A stretch of DNA of 64,000 nt from Brucellaceae bacterium (lineage in GTDB: Bacteria; Pseudomonadota; Alphaproteobacteria; Rhizobiales; Rhizobiaceae), in assembly GCA_020637775.1 (NCBI GenBank), contig JACKJV010000014.1:20550-84549 (forward strand). The letters run 5' to 3'. Below the pieces are notes generated by a model that saw only the letters and a program-made list of their open reading frames with translations, did not search any database and was not told the DNA's origin. The translations under genes and the position numbers were made by a program. Of the stretch, positions 12,115-61,230 are shown piece after piece. The first letter of the stretch is position 1, and every line of letters starts with the position of its first letter.

Positions 12115-12969
12115 ATGAGCAATTTTGCCGGGCAGTGGCCAAAGCAGCATGTATCCGAACAGGGAACCGGTACCGGCAGGCCGGGTTTCGGCCTTGCCGG
12201 ACTGGTGGCATCCGCCGCCGTTCTTGCCGTTCTGGCGGGCTTCGGCGCCATCGCCTATGTCGCCGGAAGCGGACCCAAGGGTAGCGGGCATGTCATGGCC
12301 AGCCGGGCGGTTGCCGGAATTGCAGGCGCGGCTTCTTCTGCGTCGACGGACAAGGTGGCAAGTGCGCTTTCCCTGTCGGCTGATGATGAACGGGCGCCGC
12401 CGCCGTCACCGGATGAGGCGGCTGCCGGCAATCCTGGAACGCGGGAGGCCTTGCCGCCACAAATGTCCGGCAACGGCCAGGAAACACTCACTCCGGCGCC
12501 TGTCAGAACCGTCAAGGTGGCGCCCGACGGGCGGCTTCATCAGCAAATGGACGGACTGGATGCAGATGATCCGCGCTGGGCGCAGGATCTCGAACAGCCC
12601 GTCAACAAGGGCGAACAGGCCTTGGCAAGGCTGCTGCTGGAAGCCAGGGACGATACGCAGATGCCGGCAGACAATTCGCTTACGGCGGCCATCGCGCCAG
12701 TCGAACGGAAACTGGCAACACCTTCGCGTCCTGCGCCCGGCGATGCAAACCGCGACGAAGCCGCACATGACGCGGCCGCAACCTCCGGTGCCACTGGCTA
12801 TGCGCGGCAATATGTGAACATGCGCGCAGGGCCGAGCAACGATGCCGATGTGCTCAAGGTGATACCCGCAAAGGCCAGGCTGACCATTCACGGCTGCAAG
12901 GGCTGGTGTGAAGTCAGCCATGATGGTCAGCGGGGTTTCGTTTACAAGAGCTTCATCAGGCGCGGCTGA
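12115..12969 (+). CDS. Membrane-anchored bacterial SH3-domain protein
   Basis: 284 residues with a GGGAGAAG ribosome-binding site. A single membrane segment near residues 26-50 (FGLAGLVASAAVLAVLAGFGAIAY) is followed by a long Pro/Ala/Ser-rich linker and a C-terminal SH3b domain (about 225-284: YVNMRAGPSNDADVLKVIP, GCKGWCEVSHDGQRGFVYKSFI). SH3b domains of this type bind peptidoglycan or act as periplasmic adaptors. An N-in, C-periplasmic arrangement is expected. The partner is unknown. Confidence 0.85.
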   Translation: MSNFAGQWPKQHVSEQGTGTGRPGFGLAGLVASAAVLAVLAGFGAIAYVAGSGPKGSGHVMASRAVAGIAGAASSASTDKVASALSLSADDERAPPPSPDEAAAGNPGTREALPPQMSGNGQETLTPAPVRTVKVAPDGRLHQQMDGLDADDPRWAQDLEQPVNKGEQALARLLLEARDDTQMPADNSLTAAIAPVERKLATPSRPAPGDANRDEAAHDAAATSGATGYARQYVNMRAGPSNDADVLKVIPAKARLTIHGCKGWCEVSHDGQRGFVYKSFIRRG

Positions 12970-12989: not shown

Positions 12990-13062
12990 TTGCGATTTGC
13001 AAAGTGCCTTGCCGCGCGTCGATCGCGTTTTGCATTGCGCACCGATGATTTGCGTTTTGCAA
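12990..13062 (+). promoter_or_regulatory. Array of three LuxO-operator-like sites
   Basis: Site 1 (12990-13002) is TTGCG-ATT-TGCAA, site 3 (13050-13062) is TTGCG-TTT-TGCAA, and site 2 (13030-13042) is TTGCA-TTG-CGCAC, whose complement reads GTGCG-CAA-TGCAA. The centres are 12996, 13036 and 13056, that is 40 and 20 bp apart, close to whole helical turns. They lie about 60-120 bp upstream of the sigma-54-like promoter, the usual place for enhancer-binding proteins. The described LuxO consensus is TTGCA-N3-TGCAA. The sites are directly visible; the identity of the binder is inferred. Confidence 0.6.
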
Positions 13063-13114
13063 ATCCCGTCTGGCTCTTTGCTTTTAAAAAGCAAGGTTTC
13101 CCGGCCTTTTCAAC

Positions 13115-13130
13115 TTGGCACGATCCTTGA
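13115..13130 (+). promoter_or_regulatory. Candidate sigma-54 promoter
   Basis: TTGGCACGATCCTTGA fits the -24/-12 consensus TGGCACG-N4-TTGC with one mismatch, A for the C of the -12 box. That base is normally well conserved, so the match is good but not perfect. The predicted start is near 13141. The enhancer-like sites just upstream make it more credible than the motif alone. Confidence 0.5.
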
Positions 13131-13140
13131 AATGTTCCGA

Positions 13141-13306
13141 GTGTCGCGAGTTTTTGCCCTGCTGCCGGGCAATCATCGCCGGGGGGCGGCTTGATTGCCA
13201 ATGCGGCTTACAGGCGGCAGGGACGCGGATCGGGTGTGTGCGGTCCCGAGGGGGCAAGCCGGCGGATGGTGTGGGGCTTTCATCCGCCGGCTTCGCTCGC
13301 GTTCTT
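13141..13306 (+). ncRNA. Candidate structured small RNA (Qrr-like control suspected)
   Basis: The transcript predicted from the sigma-54-like promoter would contain a hairpin TTGCCC/GGGCAA (13154-13172), a small GCC-rich hairpin (about 13179-13191), a GGGAC/GTCCC stem (13220-13247), and a 13-bp perfect stem AAGCCGGCGGATG/CATCCGCCGGCTT (13256-13268 and 13281-13293). The last is followed after an 8-nt GC-rich stretch by TTCTTTT. A strong stem then a delayed U-run is a mediocre intrinsic terminator, so read-through into the aminotransferase gene is possible and the segment may instead be a long structured leader. Coordinates are predictions. Confidence 0.4.
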
Positions 13307-13358
13307 TTCCTGAAGCCCCGGTAATTCCCGATTGCAATTGCGGATTGACTCCGCAATC

Positions 13359-13460
13359 ATGTTTCCCATGAAGCTGAAACCTTCGCTCAGAACCCTGCAT
13401 GCCGAGTTGCTGCGCCTATGCGCGCGCATCGGCTATTCCCCGCCGGCATTTCCCGTCTGA
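13359..13460 (+). CDS. Possible small protein or leader peptide
   Basis: An ATG at 13359 (or in-frame at 13368) opens a frame of 33 (or 30) codons, MFPMKLKPSLRTLHAEL and on to TGA at 13460. It has an amphipathic basic helix but no convincing ribosome-binding site; a hairpin at 13337-13357 lies immediately before it. It ends 53 bp before the aminotransferase start. It could be a leader peptide or chance. Confidence 0.2.
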   Translation: MFPMKLKPSLRTLHAELLRLCARIGYSPPAFPV

Positions 13461-13513: not shown

Positions 13514-14899
13514 ATGACATATCAAAACTATTCGCTGGAGCAGCTGCAGGCCATCGATGCGGCGCACCACCTGCATCCCTTCACCGACCACAAGGATCTG
13601 CGCGCTGCGGGCAGCCGCATGATCGTGCGCGCCGACGGCGCGTTCATCCATGACAGCGAGGGCAATGCCATCCTCGACGGCATGGCTGGCCTCTGGTGCG
13701 TCAATGTCGGTTACGGCCGCGACGAACTGGCCGAGGCGGCCTATACGCAGATGAAGGAATTACCCTATTACAATTCGTTTTTCCGGTGCACGACACCGAC
13801 GCCGGTGCTGCTTTCACAGAAGCTTTCCGAGATTGCGCCTGAACATGTGAACCAGGTCTTCTACGGATCTTCCGGTTCTGAATCGAATGACACGGCGCTG
13901 CGGCTCGTCCGCCATTTCTGGGCGCTTGAAGGCAAGCCCGAGAAGCAGATCATCATTTCGCGCCAGATGGCCTATCACGGTTCCACCGTGGCCGGCGCTT
14001 CACTGGGCGGCATGAGTGCGATGCATGCCCAGCTCGGTGCGCCTGTGCCGGGCATCGTCCACGTCATGCCGCCCTATGCCTTCGAGCTGAAGCAGGACGG
14101 CGAAAGCGACCATGATTTCGGCTTGCGGGCGGCGCGGGCCGTTGAAGACGCAATCCTGGAGCATGGGGCGGACAAGGTCGCCGCATTCATCGGCGAGCCG
14201 GTCATGGGGGCGGGCGGCGTGAAAATCGCGCCCGACAGCTATTGGCCCGAGATTCAACGGATATGCCGCAAGCATGACATCCTGCTCATGCTGGATGAAG
14301 TGATCACCGGCTACGGCCGGACGGGCAACTGGTTCGCCGCCCAGACACTGGGCATCGAACCGGACACGATCACCACCGCCAAGGCGCTGACATCGGGCTA
14401 TCAGCCTCTCTCGGCCTTGCTCGTCGGGGAACGTATTTCCCGTACGCTGATCGAGAAGGGGGGCGAATTCTTCCACGGCTATACCTATTCGGGCCATCCG
14501 GTTGCTTGTGCCGTCGCGTTGAAGAACCTGGAAATCATCGAGCAGGAGGGGCTGATCGAACGGGTGCGCGACGATACCGGCCCCTATCTCGCCAGCCAGC
14601 TTGCCGAGCGGATTTCCCCGCACGGGATCGTGGGCGAGGCGCGCTCCATCGGCCTGATGGCGGCCATCGAGATCGTGAAGGACAAGGCCAGCGGCCAGCG
14701 GTTTCCCGGCGCGGGGGCGGCGGCCGTCTGCGTGCGCGATCACGCCATTGCCAATGACATGATGATGCGCGCTGTCGGCGATACGATGATCCTGTCGCCG
14801 CCGTTGATCTGGACCCGCGAGACGATCGACATGGCAATGGACCGCATTCTTGCTGCGCTTGATGCAGCGGAGCGGGATCTGAGGAGCAGGGAGGCGTGA
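13514..14899 (+). CDS. Class III omega-aminotransferase (putrescine/beta-alanine:pyruvate type)
   Basis: The 461-residue PLP enzyme has the class III pattern: YGSSGSESNDTALRLVRHFW for the phosphate-binding region near residue 118, AYHGSTVAGASLGG, the cofactor Asp in LMLDEVITGYGRTG near residue 262, and the Schiff-base Lys in TAKALTSGYQPL near residue 293. Close families use putrescine, other polyamines, taurine or beta-alanine as donor and usually pyruvate as acceptor; the exact donor cannot be read from sequence. The gene lies about 370 bp downstream of the sigma-54-like promoter, which could serve it if transcription reads through the hairpins. Confidence 0.88.
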   Translation: MTYQNYSLEQLQAIDAAHHLHPFTDHKDLRAAGSRMIVRADGAFIHDSEGNAILDGMAGLWCVNVGYGRDELAEAAYTQMKELPYYNSFFRCTTPTPVLLSQKLSEIAPEHVNQVFYGSSGSESNDTALRLVRHFWALEGKPEKQIIISRQMAYHGSTVAGASLGGMSAMHAQLGAPVPGIVHVMPPYAFELKQDGESDHDFGLRAARAVEDAILEHGADKVAAFIGEPVMGAGGVKIAPDSYWPEIQRICRKHDILLMLDEVITGYGRTGNWFAAQTLGIEPDTITTAKALTSGYQPLSALLVGERISRTLIEKGGEFFHGYTYSGHPVACAVALKNLEIIEQEGLIERVRDDTGPYLASQLAERISPHGIVGEARSIGLMAAIEIVKDKASGQRFPGAGAAAVCVRDHAIANDMMMRAVGDTMILSPPLIWTRETIDMAMDRILAALDAAERDLRSREA

Positions 14900-15308: not shown

Positions 15309-17414
15309 TCAGAAACTGCTTTCCCGCACAAGGATGGCGGCAACGCGCCGGAAAAAACCGGCCGCCAGGCTCTCCCGCTTTGCGTCGAGCAGGACGGTTC
15401 CGCGCATTTCGTAGGTGACGCCCAGCGAATCCATGGCTTCGAGCTTGCCGGCATACCAGCTCCCGGCAATGGCATCCCGGGCATCGCGCTGCGTCCGGAC
15501 ACTGCCGCCGTGTTCGGCGGCAAGCAACGGGCCGGGCAGCGTGTTCATGGGGGCCGGAGAGATGTCGGTCAGTGTGACATCAATTGCCGGTGTCTCAGGT
15601 TCAGAGGCGATGAAGCGGCCGATTGCACCGGGGGAAAGCCGGTGAATGGCCGCTTCCGGGATCGTGGCGACCAGTGCAGGGGCAGCGGTGCCAGCGATCA
15701 CGGCGAGGCGGGCGGATGGCGCGACCCAAAGCCCGGGCTGGAGATCGGGCAGGGTATTGGCAATGCGCCCGGAAATGGGCGCCCGGATTTCCAGCGCTGT
15801 CTCCAGCGCTTCCAGACTGGCGATTTCGCTTCTTGCCGAAGCCAGTTCATTTTCGATCACGCCGCGCTGCGAGAGATCGCGGTCATCGGCGGCCATGCGG
15901 GCAAGGCGTGCGCGCGCCAGGGTCATGCGGGCGAGTGCCACTTGCTTGCGATGGACCAGATCCGGCGCTTCGAGCCGGTAAAGCAATTGCCCCTCCTGCA
16001 CGATTTCGTTGTCGGCGGTCAAAACATCGACCAGTCTGGCCTTGGCTGACGCATGCAGTGGGAAGGTGGGCGCGGCCCGCAGAAGCGCCGGCGCTGCAAT
16101 TCTTCCCTGCCAGGGTACGAAAAGCGCACAAAGGACGGTCGCGAGAATGAATGCGTTGCGGGCAAGTGTCCGGTTGAGCGTTATCCGCTTCCGGTTCTTC
16201 CACCATTCGGCAAGTTCGCGAAACACCGGCATTGCGATGAAGACAGCGATTTCGAGGCAGAAAAGGACAATGCCGATCACCTTGACCGTCATGTGGTAGA
16301 CGAGAAGCGCAATACCGGCGAACAGGAAAAAGCGGTAGACCCAGGTCGCCCAGGCATAGACGATGACGACATGCCGTGTCGCGGGCGCGAGCGGTTCTGG
16401 TGCCGGATCGCTCCACCCGAACAGGAGTTCGCGCAAGCGCCACCGTGCCATGGCAAAGCTGCGGTTCTGCAGATTGCGGAAGTCCATGCTGTCAGCCAGA
16501 AGGTAATATCCGTCAAAGCGCATCAGCGGATTGAGATTGACGGCAAGGCTGGTCAGCCATGACAGGGTGGCCGCTGCAAAGACCGCGCCGCGCAGCGGCC
16601 CGTCCGGCAGCAGCGCCCAGAGAAGAGTGCACCAGGCGGCAATGACCAGTTCCGTGAAGATGCCGGCCGCATCGATCATCACGCGCTGGCGCGCCGGCAG
16701 CCGCCACGCGCTCGTCGTATCGGTGTAGAGGATGGGAAACAGCACGATGAAGGCTATGCCGATGGTCGGCACCGGTGTGCGATAGCGCCGCGCCATGAAG
16801 GCGTGGCCGAGTTCGTGCAGCGACTTGATGACAACGAGGCTGGCGCCGTAGATCAGAAAGCCCTCGAAGGTCAGGAAGTCAATGAATGTGCTTGCAAAGA
16901 CATCCCATTGCCGGGATGCAAGCCAGAGACCGGCCAATGCGGCCAGTGCCGAGAGAATGGCGAATGCGCGGGTGAAGAGCGGCGCCACCAAGGGCCAGAG
17001 ACGGTCGAGGAATGCCTGGGGCCGGAAGAGCGGCAGGCGAAAGAAGATATAGGCATGGGCGGCGCGGGAGAAGATCCCCTTCTGGCTTCGCCGTGCATTG
17101 GCGGCCCGTGCTTTCCATTCACCGGGTTCCGGCGTGGTCAGTTCGTTCGCCGTCAGATAGCGCACCATGGTATCGATGTCTTCGGGTGTGGCCGGCCGGC
17201 CGGTCATCTCCTCGTGCCGTCGCATGATCCGGCTCTTGCTGCCTGCGCCCCAGACGGCGAGTAGATCGAAGGCCGCCCGGGGCAACCTGAAAAACCGCTG
17301 GCGCACCGGATCCTCGATCAGCCAGGCACGTATGCCATGCCTGTCTTTGGGCGCTTCATGCACGCGCAGATCCGGGCGCAGGGCAGGCACTGGCATGTCT
17401 TCAGCCGGCGTCAC
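15309..17414 (-). CDS. Site-2 protease (M50)-HlyD fusion membrane protein
   Basis: A 701-residue protein. The first 95 residues (RPDLRVHEAPKDRHGIRAWL, FFRLPRAAFDLLAVWGAG) look like a PqqD-type winged-helix or peptide-recognition domain. A polytopic M50 domain follows, with HELGH near residue 201 and the second metal motif NPLMRFDGYYLL near residue 298. After a further membrane segment near residue 430 comes a HlyD/biotinyl-lipoyl adaptor region with coiled coil (about 455-640). The start is GTG at 17414; ATG at 17396 is an alternative. It is the last gene of a three-gene operon of HlyD-type proteins. Substrate and secretion partner are unknown. Confidence 0.85.
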   Translation of the reverse strand: MTPAEDMPVPALRPDLRVHEAPKDRHGIRAWLIEDPVRQRFFRLPRAAFDLLAVWGAGSKSRIMRRHEEMTGRPATPEDIDTMVRYLTANELTTPEPGEWKARAANARRSQKGIFSRAAHAYIFFRLPLFRPQAFLDRLWPLVAPLFTRAFAILSALAALAGLWLASRQWDVFASTFIDFLTFEGFLIYGASLVVIKSLHELGHAFMARRYRTPVPTIGIAFIVLFPILYTDTTSAWRLPARQRVMIDAAGIFTELVIAAWCTLLWALLPDGPLRGAVFAAATLSWLTSLAVNLNPLMRFDGYYLLADSMDFRNLQNRSFAMARWRLRELLFGWSDPAPEPLAPATRHVVIVYAWATWVYRFFLFAGIALLVYHMTVKVIGIVLFCLEIAVFIAMPVFRELAEWWKNRKRITLNRTLARNAFILATVLCALFVPWQGRIAAPALLRAAPTFPLHASAKARLVDVLTADNEIVQEGQLLYRLEAPDLVHRKQVALARMTLARARLARMAADDRDLSQRGVIENELASARSEIASLEALETALEIRAPISGRIANTLPDLQPGLWVAPSARLAVIAGTAAPALVATIPEAAIHRLSPGAIGRFIASEPETPAIDVTLTDISPAPMNTLPGPLLAAEHGGSVRTQRDARDAIAGSWYAGKLEAMDSLGVTYEMRGTVLLDAKRESLAAGFFRRVAAILVRESSF

Positions 17415-17417
17415 GGT

Positions 17418-18866
17418 TCATATTCCCAATTTCTGACGCAATGCCGCGATGGGACGGCGGAACAGAAAGTAGCCCAGAGAGACCGATGGCCCGAAAATCT
17501 GTGCGGTCCCGCGCAATCCTGCACGCAAACCGGCGCTGCCACCATCGAGGGCTGCCAGAACGGGATAGACAAGGCGGTTGTCCGGTGTCGGTTCTGCCAG
17601 ATAGGCGGCGCGTTCGATCCGTGCCGCGACCGGCGAGAGCGGGTCGGAATCCAGGAAGAGCCGCAATTCGCCGTCTCCCGCGAGCGCTGCGGTATCCCCG
17701 ATTGCCAGCTCGATCTTCACGCGCAGGCGCGCCGGATCCGCAATCTGCAAGATGCGTTCGCCGGTGGACACCGGTTTGCCGGTCCAGTCGTCCCTGTTGG
17801 AATAGAGCACAAGCCCGTCCGACGGCGCGCGGATGCCGGCCCTGTCAAGCCGGCCGCGCGCTTCCGCCAGTTCCGCTTCGGCCATGCGCCGTTCGGCTTC
17901 CGCGATCGCCAGGTCGTGCCGCATTTCGCGCGAGGTGAAGGCGCCCTGGCGGGCCCGGCGCTCGCGTGCAGCCGCGATGTCGAGTGCTCTTGCCGCCACG
18001 TCGAAACGGCCCTTGAGTTCGGTATCGTCGAATTCCGCGAGCAGGTCACCGGTTCGCACCGGCTGATTCGGGTCGACGAGGAGCCGGCGGACCACGCCAT
18101 CGATCGGCGCGGCTACGACGATCGGGTCGCGCGGCACGATTTCAGCGGGCGCCAATACGGTCAACGGCACCGGGATGAAAAGAGCCAGCGCCGCAAGCGC
18201 GGCGAATGCCAAGGCAAACTGGCGGCGCCGCGCCAGCAGGATCTGCCGCCCCCGGCGCTGTGCGAAGGGTGTAAGGGCATGGCCATAGGCAGAAGCCAGG
18301 CGGCCGGCGATCACCAGGTCGGCATCGCCGGGGGCCTTGGCAACAGGCGCGACCAGGCAACCGGCCATCCTGCCGCCGGTGATGCGGAGCGGCATAGCGA
18401 GCAGGAGCGTCGTCGCGCTGCCCGGCAATCGTGTCTTCAGCCGCAAAAGGACCGGACCGCCTTCGGCCAGTCTGCCGGCTTCCAGTGCGACTGCCCGCTC
18501 CAGCGCCGCGGCAAGTGCGGACTGCCGGTCGGGCTGGGCAAGCCCGGAGGCGTGGCGAAGGACCACGCGCCCATGCCAGGCACGATAGAGCAAAAGGTAA
18601 CAGGCAGATGCCCAGGGGAGAATGCGGCCGGTTTCGTCCACGATGTACTGGCCCAGTTCGGCCTCTGTCGCCGCTTCGCGCAAGCCTCCCTCGATCTCAA
18701 GCAGCAATTGCAGCCGGGAGGGCGCGGTCTGCCCGATTCCGGCCCGCGCTCCGGCCCCTCCTGCCTTCAGGCGCCCTGTATCTTCCGGCGGCAGCGGGCC
18801 GCTTGCGGCGCCTGCGCCCTGCGGCGTCACCTTCAGGCCGAAATCCTTTCGCACGGGCGCGTTCAT
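17418..18866 (-). CDS. GAF-like/HlyD membrane adaptor protein
   Basis: 482 residues from the ATG at 18866, with a GGGGGAA ribosome-binding site. The N-terminal 180 residues (LLLEIEGGLREAATEAELGQYIVDE and ACYLLLYRAWHGRVVLRHASGL) have the shape of a GAF-like sensory domain. One membrane span (about residues 218-238, FALAFAALAALALFIPVPL) is followed by a HlyD-type lipoyl/coiled-coil adaptor (VAAPIDGVVRRLLVDPNQPV, RAPSDGLVLYSNRDDW). It ends 3 bp before the M50 gene and begins 4 bp after the stop of the gene at 18871, so the operon is tightly coupled. Confidence 0.83.
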   Translation of the reverse strand: MNAPVRKDFGLKVTPQGAGAASGPLPPEDTGRLKAGGAGARAGIGQTAPSRLQLLLEIEGGLREAATEAELGQYIVDETGRILPWASACYLLLYRAWHGRVVLRHASGLAQPDRQSALAAALERAVALEAGRLAEGGPVLLRLKTRLPGSATTLLLAMPLRITGGRMAGCLVAPVAKAPGDADLVIAGRLASAYGHALTPFAQRRGRQILLARRRQFALAFAALAALALFIPVPLTVLAPAEIVPRDPIVVAAPIDGVVRRLLVDPNQPVRTGDLLAEFDDTELKGRFDVAARALDIAAARERRARQGAFTSREMRHDLAIAEAERRMAEAELAEARGRLDRAGIRAPSDGLVLYSNRDDWTGKPVSTGERILQIADPARLRVKIELAIGDTAALAGDGELRLFLDSDPLSPVAARIERAAYLAEPTPDNRLVYPVLAALDGGSAGLRAGLRGTAQIFGPSVSLGYFLFRRPIAALRQKLGI

Positions 18867-18870
18867 CGTG

Positions 18871-19626
18871 TCATTCCCCCGCCGGGGCTGCACGAGCAAA
18901 GCGTGCCGTGCCGCTCATGCCCGGCAGGATGCCGCCATCGGTCACGTCGAGCGTTCCGGTCAGGCGGATCGTCTGGCTGACAGGGTCCACTTCCGCGCCG
19001 ATCCGCTCCAGATGACCCAGAACGGTCGCTCCTGTCTCATCGACAGTGAAGTCGAAGCGGTCCCCGTCGCTGAGCCAGCGAAGCCAGCGCGACGGAGCCA
19101 CGAAATCGATTTCAAGGTTGCGGTCGTCCACTATGATGACCAGCGGCTTTCCGGGCTCGGGCATTTCATGGGCTTCACCGAGAAGCTCGACCACCCTTCC
19201 GTCAAAGGGTGCCTCGATGCGGCAGCCGGCCATTCGCGCTTCCGCCAGTTCAAGCTCGGCTTGTCCTTTCTCGCGGGTGGCGGATGCGAGGGCGACGTCG
19301 CCCTTGCCGGCGGCGCCGAATTTCTGCAAATGCGCCTGCTGGTTGTATTCGATCGCCGCGGCACGGGCGGCCGCGCTTGCTGCGCGATGCTCGGCTTCCA
19401 GACGGCTGCAATCGAATTCCAGCAACACGTCCCCCTTGCGAAAGCCCATACCGTCTCGCAGTGGTGCCCTGGCAAGCGGCACGGTGAGGTCCGTGGCGAT
19501 CTCCACCCTTGCCTTGGAGCGCACGACGCCGCGCAGTTCAGCCGCGGGATCGTTGTCGCCGCCATGCGCGGCAGCGCTGAACAGCAGCAGGACGGCGGCG
19601 GCAATGGAAAGGATGGAGCGTGTCAT
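18871..19626 (-). CDS. Periplasmic HlyD/RND-type adaptor
   Basis: 251 residues with a cleavable leader (MTRSILSIAAAVLLLFSAAAHGG) and a GGGGACC ribosome-binding site. It has the membrane-fusion-protein order: barrel-sandwich half (GVVRSKARVEIATDLTVPLARAPLRDG), a helical hairpin (about 75-125), the second lipoyl half (CRIEAPFDGRVVELLGEAHEMPEPGKPL), and a beta-barrel. It is the first gene of the operon with the GAF-HlyD and M50-HlyD proteins. No ABC or RND pump gene is adjacent, which is odd for adaptors. Confidence 0.87.
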   Translation of the reverse strand: MTRSILSIAAAVLLLFSAAAHGGDNDPAAELRGVVRSKARVEIATDLTVPLARAPLRDGMGFRKGDVLLEFDCSRLEAEHRAASAAARAAAIEYNQQAHLQKFGAAGKGDVALASATREKGQAELELAEARMAGCRIEAPFDGRVVELLGEAHEMPEPGKPLVIIVDDRNLEIDFVAPSRWLRWLSDGDRFDFTVDETGATVLGHLERIGAEVDPVSQTIRLTGTLDVTDGGILPGMSGTARFARAAPAGE

Positions 19627-19660
19627 CTGGTCCCCGAGATCATGAATCACGGGAAGAATA

Positions 19661-55451: not shown

Positions 55452-55913
55452 ATGGTGCGGATCCTTGGTTGTTTCCTGTCGCTGCTGATCCTTGCCTTGC
55501 CGGTTGCCGGCCGGGCTGGCGAACTGGAGGTTCGCGCAGGGGGTGTGGCAACAGTCTATTCGGAAGCAGAGCTGGAGGCGCTCGGCATGAGCTCCCTTGT
55601 GACCACCACGTCCTGGACCGATGGTCCGCAGTCATTCGATGGCGTTCTTCTTTCAAGGATCGCCGAAGTGCATGGCGTGAAGAACGGCATGATGAAAGTC
55701 ACGGCCATCAACGGCTATGAAGCCGAACTTGAGGTGTCGGAATTGCTGGCCTATCCGGTTCTGCTGGCCACGCGGCAAAACGGCAAGCGCATGCCGCTTC
55801 GCGAGAAAGGGCCTTTCTGGATCGTCTATCCGCGCGACGGATTTCCCGAATTCAATGATGAGCGGCACAATTACAAATGGGTGTGGCAAGTGCGCTCGCT
55901 GGAGTTCCAGTGA
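55452..55913 (+). CDS. Periplasmic molybdopterin-oxidoreductase-fold protein
   Basis: 153 residues with a leader (MVRILGCFLSLLILALPVAGRAG). The mature domain resembles the oxidoreductase molybdopterin-binding fold in a short form: EAELEALGMSSLVTTTSWTDG, FDGVLLSRIAEVHG, KVTAINGYEAELEVSEL, LATRQNGKRMPLREKGPFWIVYPRD and YKWVWQVRSLEFQ. The Cys that ligates molybdenum in SUOX/YedY enzymes is not seen, so it is probably a binding or sensing protein. Its stop overlaps the GTG start of the histidine kinase (GTGA), suggesting it supplies the signal. Confidence 0.8.
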   Translation: MVRILGCFLSLLILALPVAGRAGELEVRAGGVATVYSEAELEALGMSSLVTTTSWTDGPQSFDGVLLSRIAEVHGVKNGMMKVTAINGYEAELEVSELLAYPVLLATRQNGKRMPLREKGPFWIVYPRDGFPEFNDERHNYKWVWQVRSLEFQ

Positions 55914-58192
55914 GCATTCCGCATCGCTCCCGCCTTTTCACTGCCGCCCGCTCTATCGTTTTGCTGTGCCTCGGCGTTCTGCTGGCCTCCACCGCCAATG
56001 CATATTTCGCGCTGACGGAGGTCCAGGAGCGGATCACCTACCGGATTCCGGAAAACACCATCTGGGCGGCAACGCAGGCGGAAGTGGAACTGGCCCGGAC
56101 GCTGGCGCAATTGGCGCCCCGGTCAGCAGGCCTTGCACTGGACGAAAACCTGCCGCTCAGCAACCAGTTCGATCTCCTGTGGAGCCGTGCCACGCTTTAC
56201 CAGGCAGGCGTTCTGGCCGATGGTGTGCGCGCCGATCCTGAACTGGCGAAAACCTATGCCGATTTTCTGTCCGCGCTGAAGGCGGCGGATGCGTTGCTTG
56301 CATCGGCCAGCGCCGGTGACCGGAAAGCCGCTGCGCAGATGCGCGACCTTCTTGTGCCGCACAAGGCATCGCTGCGCAAGCTGACCATGGCCAGCCTGAA
56401 AAGCGACAGGGCGGAGCGGCAGATGCTGGCCCAAGATCACGAATTGCTGCAGCAGCAATTGTCGCACTTCGGAACCGCGGCGGCCATTCTGCTGTCGCTC
56501 ATGCTGGGCTATCTGTTCGTCAGCGAGCGGCGCGCGCGCTTTCACCTTGCCTATGCCAACAAGGTGCGCGCGCATCTGGAAGAAGCGCGGGAACGGGCGG
56601 ACAAGCAAGCCGAACAGATGCGCCTGCTGGCCCGCAAGGCGACAACCGCGTCGCAGGCGAAATCGGACTTCCTGGCGATGATGAGCCATGACATCCGCAC
56701 GCCGCTCAACGCCATCATCGGGCTTTCCGACATCATGGAGAAGGAGGAGACAGACCCGCACAAGCGCAAGCACATCTCCACCGTGCTGCGCGCTTCGGAG
56801 GGTCTGCTTTCCCTGATCAACGACATTCTCGACCTGACAAGGCTGGAGGCAGGCAAGCTGCGGCTGGAGCCGGCGGAGTTCTCGCCGGTGGACCTGGTCC
56901 ACGAGGTTGTCGAGGTGACGGGCGTACTGGCCGCCAGGAACCGCAACCGCGTGTCGGTGCAGGTCAATCAAGACATGCCTGAACGGATGATCGGCGACCG
57001 CGACCGCATCCGCCAGGTGCTGATGAACCTCGTCGGCAATGCCAACAAGTTCACGCGCAATGGCGATGTGATGATCGCGCTGGATTGTGCCGGAGAGCGC
57101 AATGGCAACGGGCTTGTGCGGTTCGCCGTGTCCGACAATGGCGAAGGGATCTCGGAGGGCTTGCGCCGGCGGCTTTTCCAGCCCTTCGAGCAGGGCGAGA
57201 ACAGCCGGGCAACCCATGGCGGGTCCAGCGGGCTGGGCCTTGCGATCTCGGACCGGCTCGTCCGGCTCATGGGCGGGCGCATCGTTGTCGACAGCACGCC
57301 GGGTTTCGGTTCGGTTTTCACGTTCGACATCGAGCTGGCCGTTGCCGGGCCTGAAACGACGATTGACGACGATGCGGGCGCAAACATCCGCCTTGACCTG
57401 ACCGGCAGGTCCGTCCTCGTTGTCGATGACACGGCGGCAAGCCTTCTCGTGGCGGAAACCATGTTCGCGCGCTTCGGGGCGGCAGTCGACACGGCCATCT
57501 GTGGCGAAGAGGCCGTGGAGCTTGGGCTTTCCAAAGCCTATGACCTGGTCATCCTCGATGTGCAGATGCCCGGAATGGACGGGCCGTCGGCAATGAAGGC
57601 GATGAAGCGCGCCGGAGCGAGCGCGGGCGCCATGTTCGTGGCGCTGACCGCCCAGAGCTTCCCGCGCGACCGGGCCAGGCTCATCAAGGCCGGCTTTGAC
57701 GCCTATGTCGCCAAGCCGGTGCGGATGCGCGATATCGAGTTGGCGTTGGGCCCATTGGTGAACGGCCGGAGCCGAGGCGGATCAGCGCAAGGCGCGGCGA
57801 CGCAGAGCGCCAGCGCGCCGGAGGAAGATGAAGCGCATCTCGATGCCGGTTTACTGCAATCCATGCAGGAGGATGTGGGCGAGGCGACCATGCGTCACCT
57901 CGTCAACCAGGTCGAAAGCGAGGTGGAACTGTGTATCGGCCGGCTGGAAGAGGCTTCCGCGGCGTTCAGCGGTGAGGATGTGCGAAAGACAGCGCACAAG
58001 CTCGCGGGGCTGCTTGGCCAGTTTGCCATGACGAAGGCGGCGCTGCTTGCGCGCGACCTTGAAAACGCCGCCGGCGAAGACATCGGAATTGACGACATTT
58101 CGGAAACAATCGCCGCGAGTCGCAACGGGATTCGTGCTTTACGCGCGCATCTTCATGGCCAAACAATTAACCACGAAGACAAAGCCGCCTGA
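55910..58192 (+). CDS. Hybrid sensor histidine kinase with receiver and Hpt domains
   Basis: 760 residues from a GTG coupled to the upstream gene. Two membrane segments (about 13-35 and 190-215) flank a helical periplasmic domain. After a coiled coil comes HisKA with the phospho-His in MSHDIRTPLNAIIG near residue 265, an HATPase domain (NLVGNANKFTRNG, DNGEGIS, GSSGLGLAIS), a receiver with Asp in LVILDVQMPGMDG near residue 555, and a C-terminal Hpt with His in KTAHKLAGLLGQF near residue 700. This His-Asp-His order fits delivery of phosphate to the LuxO-like regulator that follows. Confidence 0.95.
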   Translation: MSIPHRSRLFTAARSIVLLCLGVLLASTANAYFALTEVQERITYRIPENTIWAATQAEVELARTLAQLAPRSAGLALDENLPLSNQFDLLWSRATLYQAGVLADGVRADPELAKTYADFLSALKAADALLASASAGDRKAAAQMRDLLVPHKASLRKLTMASLKSDRAERQMLAQDHELLQQQLSHFGTAAAILLSLMLGYLFVSERRARFHLAYANKVRAHLEEARERADKQAEQMRLLARKATTASQAKSDFLAMMSHDIRTPLNAIIGLSDIMEKEETDPHKRKHISTVLRASEGLLSLINDILDLTRLEAGKLRLEPAEFSPVDLVHEVVEVTGVLAARNRNRVSVQVNQDMPERMIGDRDRIRQVLMNLVGNANKFTRNGDVMIALDCAGERNGNGLVRFAVSDNGEGISEGLRRRLFQPFEQGENSRATHGGSSGLGLAISDRLVRLMGGRIVVDSTPGFGSVFTFDIELAVAGPETTIDDDAGANIRLDLTGRSVLVVDDTAASLLVAETMFARFGAAVDTAICGEEAVELGLSKAYDLVILDVQMPGMDGPSAMKAMKRAGASAGAMFVALTAQSFPRDRARLIKAGFDAYVAKPVRMRDIELALGPLVNGRSRGGSAQGAATQSASAPEEDEAHLDAGLLQSMQEDVGEATMRHLVNQVESEVELCIGRLEEASAAFSGEDVRKTAHKLAGLLGQFAMTKAALLARDLENAAGEDIGIDDISETIAASRNGIRALRAHLHGQTINHEDKAA

Positions 58193-58286: not shown

Positions 58287-59772
58287 ATGAAAAACCCGAA
58301 GATCCTGGTGGTCGAAGACAGCACGGCGCTTGCGGAAACCTATCGCGGTTTCCTGCGTCCGGTTTGCGGCCAATGCGACCTGGCCGGCACGGGCGAAGAC
58401 GCCCTGGCGAAGATCTGCGAAACCGAATATGACTGCATCGTCCTTGACGTGAACCTGCCGGACATGAGCGGAATCGACATCATGGCCCGGCTGCAGGAGC
58501 GCGGCATAACCACCTCGGTCGTGGTCATCACGGCCAATGCCTCGATCAGCATCGCCGTGGATGTGATGCGTCTGGGCGCCTACGATTTCCTCGTCAAGCC
58601 CTTCAATGGCGAGCGCCTGTGCAAGACGGTCGGCAATGCGATCGATGCCCGGCGCGCGGACAAGCCTGCGGACAAGGCACCGGCCAGAGCCGCTGAAAGC
58701 GCGCCGGCACCGGCAAGCGACGATTGCGGCGAGGATGCCGGACTGGCCGGCTTCATCGGCCGGTCGCGCGCCATGCAGGGCGTCTACCGCATCCTGCAGC
58801 GGGCCGCGCCATCGAATGCCACCGTCTTCGTCACGGGTGAAAGCGGAACGGGCAAGGAGGTCTGCGCCGAAGCGCTGCACCGGCTGTCCGGCCGCGCCAA
58901 GGGGCCGTTCGTGACCATCAATGCAGCCGCTATTCCGAAGGATCTGCTGGAAAGCGAGATTTTCGGCCACGTCAAGGGTGCGTTCTCCGGTGCCACGGGC
59001 GACCGGCGCGGCGCTCTCGGCCGATGGCGGCACATTGTTCCTGGACGAAATCTGCGAGATGGACCTTGGCCTCCAGTCCAAGCTGCTGCGTTTCCTGCAA
59101 AGCAGGCAGGTTCAGCGGCTCGGCGAGGACAGGGTGCGCGTCAGCGACGTGCGCATCGTCTGCGCGACCAACCGCAACCCGGTGGAGGAGGTGAAGGCCG
59201 GCCGTTTCCGGGAGGATCTGTTCTACCGGCTGCACGTCATTCCGGTGGAATTGCCACCGCTTCGTGCCCGCGGCGAAGACATCGTGGAGATTGCACGATC
59301 CTTCCTGCTGCGTTTTGCGGAAGAGGACGGCAAGGATTTCAAGGATTTTTCGCCCGATGCCGCGGCCTTCCTGCTGTCCTATGACTGGCCGGGCAATGTG
59401 CGCCAGCTTCAGAACGTCATCCGCTCCGTCGTCGTGCTCAATGACGGTGAGACGGTGACTGCCGACATGCTGCCGCTGGACATGCTGGGAAGCGCCCGGC
59501 ACAGCGGCGGCGAGGACGGGCCGGCGGCGCCTGAACTGACACGTCCGCTAGCCGAGATCCTGGCAAGGGCGCGGCTGATGCCCGGTGAGGGGGCGTCCGG
59601 AGAGATCAGGCCCCTCGACGATGTCATCCGCGCCACGATCGAGGGCGCCATCGAGGCGTGCAACGGTTCGATCCCGCGTGCCGCGGCGGCGCTGGATGTC
59701 AGTCCCTCGACAATCTATCGCAGGATGGAGAACTGGCGGGCGGATGAAGGCGACACGAAGGCGGCCGGCTGA
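58287..59772 (+). pseudogene. LuxO-like sigma-54 response regulator, frameshifted
   Basis: The first frame (from ATG 58287) gives a receiver domain (Asp in CIVLDVNLPDMSG, Lys in FLVKPFN), Walker A GESGTGKE and the sigma-54 contact loop GAFSGA. At 59010-59019 the reading frame moves by +1: frame one reads GDRRGAL then nonsense to a stop at 59384, while the second frame gives ADGGTLFLDEICEMDLGLQSK, the rest of the AAA domain and a Fis-type helix-turn-helix (GSIPRAAAALDVSPSTIYRR). Compared with LuxO-type proteins about five bases are missing. Either the gene is inactivated or the sequence has an error. It follows the hybrid kinase by 94 bp. Confidence 0.88.
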
Positions 59773-59802: not shown

Positions 59803-61230
59803 TCAATTGCAATAGCGCGAGACGACCGGCGCCTCGCAAACCGCTTCGAATTCGTGCTGCCGGCGCAGCCGCGTATCCAGTATTTCGGCAGCCGCGGCCA
59901 GTCCGGCGCCCGCCACCAGGCCGGCGACGATGCCGACAACGAGAAACAGGATGCGGCCCGGCGTGACAGGCACGACCGGGTCCACCGGCGCGTCGATGAC
60001 CTTGATGCGCTCGGGTGCCTCGAACTTGCCGAGGGCACCGGTGATCTGGGCATTGTCAAAGCGCTTGGAGATGGAGTCGTGGCTTTCCTGAGCCATGCGG
60101 ATCTCTTCCTCGAGCCGCTTCTGTTCCTGCATGACCGGACCGGTCTCCGCGATGGCGGTATGGATGCTGTCGATCTCGGCCTCGATGGCTGACGTCTCCT
60201 CCTTCAGGCGCAGGTATTCGGCATTGCTTTCCTGCAGGCGGGTCATCTGCGAGACCAGAAGCGGAGGCGTCTTGCCGTCTTCCTGGGTGAGCGAACCGGC
60301 GGCGAGGTTCCAGAGCCGGTCTATGTCGGCGCTTTTCATCGCCTCGGCATCCTTGAGCAGCGCTTCGCGTTCGTCTTCCAGGCGGTCCAGCGTTCGCAAT
60401 TCGGCCTGGACGGCGGAATGCTCGTCCGTGTAGCGCGTCTTGAGTTCGCCAAGACGGCGGCGGGTCTTCAGAATGTCGTCCTCGATACGGCCGATGACCG
60501 GATTGGTCCCGATCAGGCGCTGGCGCACATCGCCCAGTTCCGCTTCGGCCGCCTTCAGTTTCATGCGGTTCTCGGAAAATTTCTGTTCAAGGCCGGCCAG
60601 CCGGGTGACAAGGCTGCTCTCCAGGGTTGGCAAGCGGTTGCGATTGCGCCGTTTGAACGCGGCATAGGCTTCCTGGGCTTCCGAGAGGCGCCGGGCGCGC
60701 GCTTCCAGTTCCTGGCTGAGAAAGACCTGGCTGTCGCGGATGGAACTGCGCTCGGGCGCCAGCAGCTTGTCGACAAAGTGATGCGACAGGGCGCGCAGCG
60801 TGTCCGCCATGCCGGTGGGCACGCTGCCGCGGATCGAAAAGGCAACAAGGTCATTGCCCATGAGGTCGACAGATATGGCGCCGGACAGGTTGCGGACCGC
60901 GTTGGCGCGCTCGGTCAGTGTCGACTGCGCCGAGATGTGCCCGGTATCTTCCAGCACTGCTTCGAGAATGTGGGCGGAGTGAACCAGGGTCTTGAGGGCG
61001 GGCATGCGCTCCTTGAGGTTCGGCCCCACGGCGAGATCGGTCAGGAAGGGATTGAGCTTTGCCGTCTCCTGGACGAGGATCGTCGAGCGGGCGACATAGG
61101 TCTTGGGCGCGAGACCGCCGGCCATGTAGGCGACAGGTGGCAGGGCGAGCACTGGCACGACGATCAGGTAGCGGCGGCGCCATGCGATGTCGAAGACCTG
61201 CAAGAGAAGACTGGGAATATCCCGGACCAT
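59803..61230 (-). CDS. GumC/Wzz-type polysaccharide chain-length/export protein
   Basis: 475 residues with a membrane span near residues 20-38, a large periplasmic coiled-coil part (about 150-390, for example SQELEARARRLSEAQEAYAAFKRR and RRLGELKTRYTDEHSAVQAEL), and a second span near residues 430-452 (ILFLVVGIVAGLVAGAGLAAAA) preceded by the proline-rich PVDPVVPVTPGR. This is a polysaccharide co-polymerase without a fused kinase domain. Its start shares one base with the stop of the lipoprotein gene (TGATG). It is convergent with the LuxO-like gene. Confidence 0.9.
   Translation of the reverse strand: MVRDIPSLLLQVFDIAWRRRYLIVVPVLALPPVAYMAGGLAPKTYVARSTILVQETAKLNPFLTDLAVGPNLKERMPALKTLVHSAHILEAVLEDTGHISAQSTLTERANAVRNLSGAISVDLMGNDLVAFSIRGSVPTGMADTLRALSHHFVDKLLAPERSSIRDSQVFLSQELEARARRLSEAQEAYAAFKRRNRNRLPTLESSLVTRLAGLEQKFSENRMKLKAAEAELGDVRQRLIGTNPVIGRIEDDILKTRRRLGELKTRYTDEHSAVQAELRTLDRLEDEREALLKDAEAMKSADIDRLWNLAAGSLTQEDGKTPPLLVSQMTRLQESNAEYLRLKEETSAIEAEIDSIHTAIAETGPVMQEQKRLEEEIRMAQESHDSISKRFDNAQITGALGKFEAPERIKVIDAPVDPVVPVTPGRILFLVVGIVAGLVAGAGLAAAAEILDTRLRRQHEFEAVCEAPVVSRYCN

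Follow-up and report, generated by a model that had tools for sequence, protein, structure and literature searches.

Could an array of LuxO-operator-like sites in front of a sigma-54-type promoter serve in an alphaproteobacterium as it does before the qrr genes of vibrios? The first-pass annotation of a 64,000-nucleotide stretch of DNA from a Brucellaceae bacterium (the window, analyzed here at its full length) had proposed such an enhancer/promoter unit, which raises the questions which activator would use it and which product it would control.

Site array and sigma-54-type box

Direct reading of the sequence confirmed that three sites and a promoter-like box lie where they had been proposed, with centers 40 and then 20 bp apart, and that the -12 box deviates at a conserved base, its last C (TTGA). 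The two good sites (12990 and 13050) read TTGCG-N3-TGCAA, each with one mismatch to TTGCANNNTGCAA and a G at position 5 in both; the box at 13116 reads TGGCAC-N5-TTGA, the -12 deviation being its one mismatch. In sequence comparison, the UAS pattern TTGCAWWWTGCAA is thus found upstream of a sigma-54 box. Array and box are located in a 544-bp gap between the SH3-domain gene and the class III aminotransferase gene (Table 1). A plasmid search with the array region gave no match. A 13-mer identical to site 3 precedes a gene judged by likeness to be PilZ-like in another genome of the family (G188).

Neither element is enriched on its own in the window: 8 operator near-matches were counted against a shuffle mean of 6.95, and 75 sigma-54 boxes (at most two mismatches) against a mean of 88.2. 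When the window was simulated 200 times with a Markov-1 model, 3 of the simulated sequences contained a box accompanied by one or more UAS (no more than one mismatch in each), and none contained a box with two such UAS. As the window has two good sites together with a box, the combination exceeds chance.

Table 1. Coordinates of the features discussed, in positions of the window.
Feature	Position	Strand	Remarks
SH3-domain protein gene	12115..12969	+	upstream of the array
UAS-like site 1, TTGCGATTTGCAA	12990..13002	.	-126 from TGG of the -24 box; sequence read directly
UAS-like site 2, degenerate, TTGCATTGCGCAC	13030..13042	.	-86; two mismatches to TTGCANNNTGCAA
UAS-like site 3, TTGCGTTTTGCAA	13050..13062	.	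-66 from TGG of the -24 box
Sigma-54-type -24/-12 promoter, TGGCACGATCCTTGA	13116..13130	+	predicted start near 13142
Predicted structured non-coding RNA	13142..13294	+	fold z; 3' end uncertain, about 13294-13312
5' hairpin of predicted RNA	13157..13222	+	fold; pairs kept against L001
Conserved linker CGGGYGUGYG..CCCGAGGGGGC, small predicted helix	13231..13255	+	
3' hairpin with UGUGGGGCUU loop	13256..13293	+	unit repeated in L001 and L002
Predicted sigma-70-type promoter (TTGCAA, 17 bp, AATCAT)	13332..13360	+	by eye; scanner does not list it
Conserved small ORF, 30 aa	13368..13460	+	before aminotransferase; related ORFs in array-less relatives
Class III aminotransferase gene	13514..14899	+	downstream gene
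Hybrid histidine kinase gene, HisKA-HATPase-REC-Hpt	55877..58192	+	predicted phosphodonor; Hpt just below Pfam cut-off
LuxO/SypG-like sigma-54 activator gene	58287..59772	+	frameshifted near 59000; intact in both sister genomes
Polysaccharide chain-length-determinant-like gene	59803..61230	-	beside activator; no Pfam hit

Conservation in sister genomes

The aminotransferase, used as query, matched 569 loci, and the 1500 bases upstream of the best 80 were searched for exact TTGC-N5-GCAA sites and for sigma-54 boxes carrying no more than one mismatch. One or the other was present at 8 of these 80 loci, but only the two closest among them combine both elements at the position orthologous to the array, namely those of MAG SP17 (locus L001 of genome G001, 93%) and Zhengella mangrovi (L002 of G002, 88%). 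At L003 neither is present at this place. The MAG SP17 box is perfect (TGGCACGATGATTGC). The Zhengella box (TGGCATGAACCTTGA) has two mismatches, and its site TTGCAAATTGCAA, at -66, is perfect at the fixed positions. Tested against GG in the -24 and GC in the -12 element at the proper spacing, the -12 box reads TTGA in the window and L002 and TTGC in L001; the same TTGA mismatch recurs before the UDP-sugar dehydrogenase gene of G202.

Conservation in relatives that keep the activator gene, on which the first-pass annotation had staked its proposal, was therefore borne out at short range: the array is present in 2 of 2 sister genomes of the genus with an intact activator but in 0 of 4 more distant holders of an ortholog (G095, G181, G090, and G011), where it is absent before the related aminotransferase. 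Because these four lack the array, the RNA arm described below looks confined to Zhengella-type genomes.

The activator gene and its neighbors

The putative activator gene lies 45 kb from the array and adjoins the gene for the Hpt-domain hybrid kinase. The frameshift near 59000 could be a real loss or an assembly error; unless it is the latter, the promoter would be silent in the window's strain, as its activator is broken. The G002 protein has the REC - AAA+ sigma-54 - Fis HTH architecture, whereas the frame is interrupted in the window. Intact orthologs share 76% (G001) and 77% (G002) identity over the first 235 residues, whereas the eight remaining genomes of the same ten-genome set gave best matches of 38-42%. 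In a sample of 199 genomes of the family, 38 pass E 1e-90, and a gap in the scores sets apart ten ortholog holders (E < 1e-137, the query's own genome counted).

The nearest solved structure to the G002 protein is LuxO (438.6 bits, the next protein reaching 300.6), and LuxO is also the best NCBIfam model (NF041946). However, the scores of 584 bits (G002) and 576.5 bits (G001) stay below the model's cut-off of 800, and filing the protein as LuxO proper was dropped on this ground. Given the sub-cut-off score, the Hpt hybrid kinase and polysaccharide-type neighbors, and the STAS gene behind a promoter in Zhengella (see below), a comparison with SypG is at least as good; it is drawn from gene context, not from the SypG sequence. 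A gene of G002 (L097:7804-9231) that resembles the chain-length-determinant-like gene of the window matches TIGR03007 below the cut-off of that model. Both sister genomes encode a sigma-54 (RpoN) domain and Hfq.

Similar promoters around activator orthologs

With at most one mismatch each in box and UAS, a criterion fixed after a first look at these regions, 11 promoters of this kind were found in 422 kb around the activator orthologs, in 7 of 10 genomes (G002, G001, G181, G090, G188, G202, and G184), against none in 949 kb of background comprising 98 loci, including short neighborhoods of 18 other activators. Among the 11 are the G001 counterpart of the window's promoter, a pair in G002 built on a single palindromic site, and one poor box facing the other way (L137:7107). 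G095, searched over a 6.6-kb contig, G011, and G118 have no such promoter at this limit; the latter two have a box with two mismatches. Allowing two mismatches in each element gave 34 in the ortholog neighborhoods and 6 in the 98 background loci. Several of the promoters around orthologs have two sites, near -86 and -66.

The genes behind these promoters are partly of polysaccharide type. Pfam types just after them are STAS (G002, G181), glycosyltransferase (G002), and PilZ/HlyD and UDP-sugar dehydrogenase (G202, where a third gene has no Pfam hit); similar genes in G090, G188, G184, and G118 were assigned by likeness. Behind the G011 promoter is a phosphonate-binding protein (Pfam), a class that is not polysaccharide-type. 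At L138:3754 (G011), L140:17831 (G184), and L142:7849 (G118), the promoter points toward a gene that resembles those for phosphonate-binding proteins and runs divergently from the activator gene. One site in Zhengella, perfect at all fixed positions, has the STAS gene on one side and, on the other, a divergently oriented glycosyltransferase gene from a polysaccharide cluster; the STAS ortholog of G001 (76% identity) is preceded by a TGGCAT-N5-TTGC box and degenerate sites, as judged by eye. On contig C33 of G002 (about 9-33 kb), a Syp-type set of STAS, hybrid kinase, activator, and polysaccharide genes lies together, the likeness being judged on these components of a syp locus of 18 genes.

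Simple pattern searches are not diagnostic of the circuit on their own. They matched 3 of 10 genomes in one set, two of which (G004 and G005) have no activator ortholog, and 4 of the 10 ortholog holders, with chance-like matches in G090, G188, and G118; among the 199 genomes, 8 matched, 5 of them non-holders, and the backward control matched 2.

Predicted structured RNA

From the promoter to the aminotransferase, the window, Zhengella mangrovi, and MAG SP17 have a stretch of about 370-445 nt in which no gene is obvious. In the window, this interval holds no plus-strand ORF of at least 60 aa; mechanical ORFs of 81 and 90 aa lie on the minus strand over the RNA region, and plus-strand ORFs over the hairpins in L001 (94 aa) and L002 (111 aa) were taken as chance. 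What is conserved is a predicted RNA made of a 5' hairpin and a G-rich hairpin unit, the latter duplicated in both relatives; in L001 (4655-4783) the duplication is in tandem and near-exact.

The region folds better than shuffled sequences in all three genomes (z of -2.48 in the window, -5.72 in L001, and -4.66 in L002). Of the 23 pairs in the 5' hairpin, 20 are retained in L001, three of them by two-sided changes, and the three broken pairs are at its tip, while slid controls keep 4-13 pairs with zero or one two-sided change; the 5' hairpin of L002 has a different sequence. In the 3' unit, 6 of 17 pairs show two-sided changes, with a slightly unfavorable covariation term (+0.6). A model of the unit detects two copies each in G001 and G002, both of which supplied copies for the model, and one strong match in the window (71.8 bits, the next at 21.2), but none in the other 197 genomes of the family, where stricter filters applied. 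When the L001 unit was compared as DNA with the ten ortholog holders, again only G001 and G002 matched; three genomes, the window's included, carry the predicted RNA. GGGGC occurs 3, 5, and 4 times in the window, L001, and L002, counts that 5000 pieces drawn at random from the window reached in 6, 0, and 0 cases, respectively.

No Rfam family reached its gathering score in the window, and the region and its orthologs gave weak matches to other families; a known RNA family, Qrr included, was set aside as it fits neither the window nor the orthologs. Translation from an ATG in the 3' hairpin, preceded by GAGGGGG as read by eye, was also discarded, the frames being inconsistent across the three genomes. 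A duplex-energy scan for targets, covering start regions in the retrieved DNA (ten best per list), yielded no gene recognized in all three lists. No terminator was called at the 3' hairpin, and a clean U tract is missing in the window and in Zhengella, making read-through into the aminotransferase possible.

Downstream genes and alternative explanations

The main rival to a free RNA supposes such read-through. The sigma-54-type promoter could give rise to an mRNA for the small ORF and the aminotransferase with an extended, structured 5' leader, in which the hairpins would be a control element. RNA region and aminotransferase are on the same strand, 398-470 nt lie between the TGG and the aminotransferase start, and the hairpin is followed by no clean U tract in 2 of the 3 genomes. 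By contrast, behind the 13 other promoters examined this distance to the gene is 43-82 bases (with four starts picked by eye). The small ORF and aminotransferase also occur as a pair in relatives that lack the array, several of which show promoter-like boxes immediately upstream of the small ORF, again by eye; comparable boxes are seen in the window and, in the same sigma-70-type layout, in L001, and are less clear in L002. The aminotransferase thus seems to have its own promoter, and these boxes in relatives favor a separate RNA transcript; we regard the leader as rather unlikely. The idea that the aminotransferase is the sole target of the array is weakened by the same array-less relatives. 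Across the 84 loci scanned, a small ORF resembling TPSPRTLHAELLRLCARIGYSPP precedes the aminotransferase in 56, as a rule with some 50 bases between the two. Further downstream in the window (15309-19650, minus strand) is a secretion-type gene cluster with peptidase- and HlyD-like members, as judged from translations.

Two other explanations concern the sites themselves. They could be used by another sigma-54 activator, NtrC-like, FlbD-like, or a paralog, and candidates abound, since G001 and G002 have 33 and 46 response regulators and activators, respectively, that match at E up to 0.001. The combination of site and box is nevertheless concentrated around the ortholog and absent from the background with its 18 other activators, and this makes a different activator improbable. 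That the palindromes are a chance occurrence in an intergenic region would accord with the lack of enrichment of lone sites and boxes, but we consider it very improbable, with the two-site combination missing from every simulation and the array kept in two sister genomes, one of them with a better box.

Proposed circuit and relation to known systems

The reading that we favor, and hold to be probable, is that array and box serve as the regulatory region for a predicted structured small RNA, which a LuxO/SypG-type activator would switch on together with exopolysaccharide genes. The Hpt-domain hybrid kinase would phosphorylate the activator, the activator would bind the sites, spaced by about two and four turns of the helix, and sigma-54 polymerase would then fire. 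The RNA, which judging from the shared sites is likely made together with slime polysaccharide, would end at or near its G-rich hairpin, and its repeated GGGGC motifs may act either on C-rich partner RNAs, Hfq being present, or on some protein distinct from CsrA.

In V. fischeri, SypG is described as activating the sigma-54 promoters of syp as well as qrr1 via sites overlapping TTGCAWWWTGCAA (PMC10162802), and the STAS protein SypA is assigned to the syp locus (PMC4517449). The parallels are the 13-bp TTGCA-N3-TGCAA-type sites upstream of a sigma-54 box at qrr1 and syp (PMC10162802), the activator type, the Hpt-domain kinase, and polysaccharide genes, STAS included, behind the same type of site; the predicted RNA gene would be the second target here. 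In contrast to V. fischeri, the host is an alphaproteobacterium, the activator scores below the LuxO cut-off, the good sites of the window have G at position 5, and Rfam gives no Qrr match; a LitR-type target is not among the features matched. The proposed LuxO-qrr-type unit thus held up as far as it is conserved and recurs near activator orthologs, whereas the activator falls short of LuxO proper, SypG being at least as apt a comparison. The product, left unnamed in the first-pass annotation, would on the present evidence be a structured RNA.

The likeness to the Vibrio Qrr small RNAs lies in promoter design and in a predicted non-coding product; the RNA itself differs, having G-rich hairpin units that are repeated in the relatives and no Rfam Qrr match. 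Protein-sequestering RNAs of the CsrB/RsmY type have repeated G-rich motifs in hairpin loops, in varying copy number. There the motif is GGA, here GGGGC, and titration of CsrA by the G-rich loops was rejected, since CsrA was found in neither of the two sister genomes searched.

More broadly, and tentatively, we propose an alphaproteobacterial Qrr-like circuit, a possibility to which we give slightly less than even weight: a SypG/LuxO-type phosphorelay would make exopolysaccharide and an unrelated small RNA with tandem G-loops through the same sites, the wiring being either ancestral with the RNA replaced, or arisen twice. A literature search over titles and abstract openings found no such circuit described in Hyphomicrobiales, though one may still be in print. 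The findings would extend the LuxO/SypG site code from the Vibrionaceae to a family of the Hyphomicrobiales and add a predicted structured RNA that contains a repeated unit and lies outside Rfam families. With its predicted targets named, the circuit may allow the production of slime and of a regulatory RNA to be tested as a single switch outside Vibrio.
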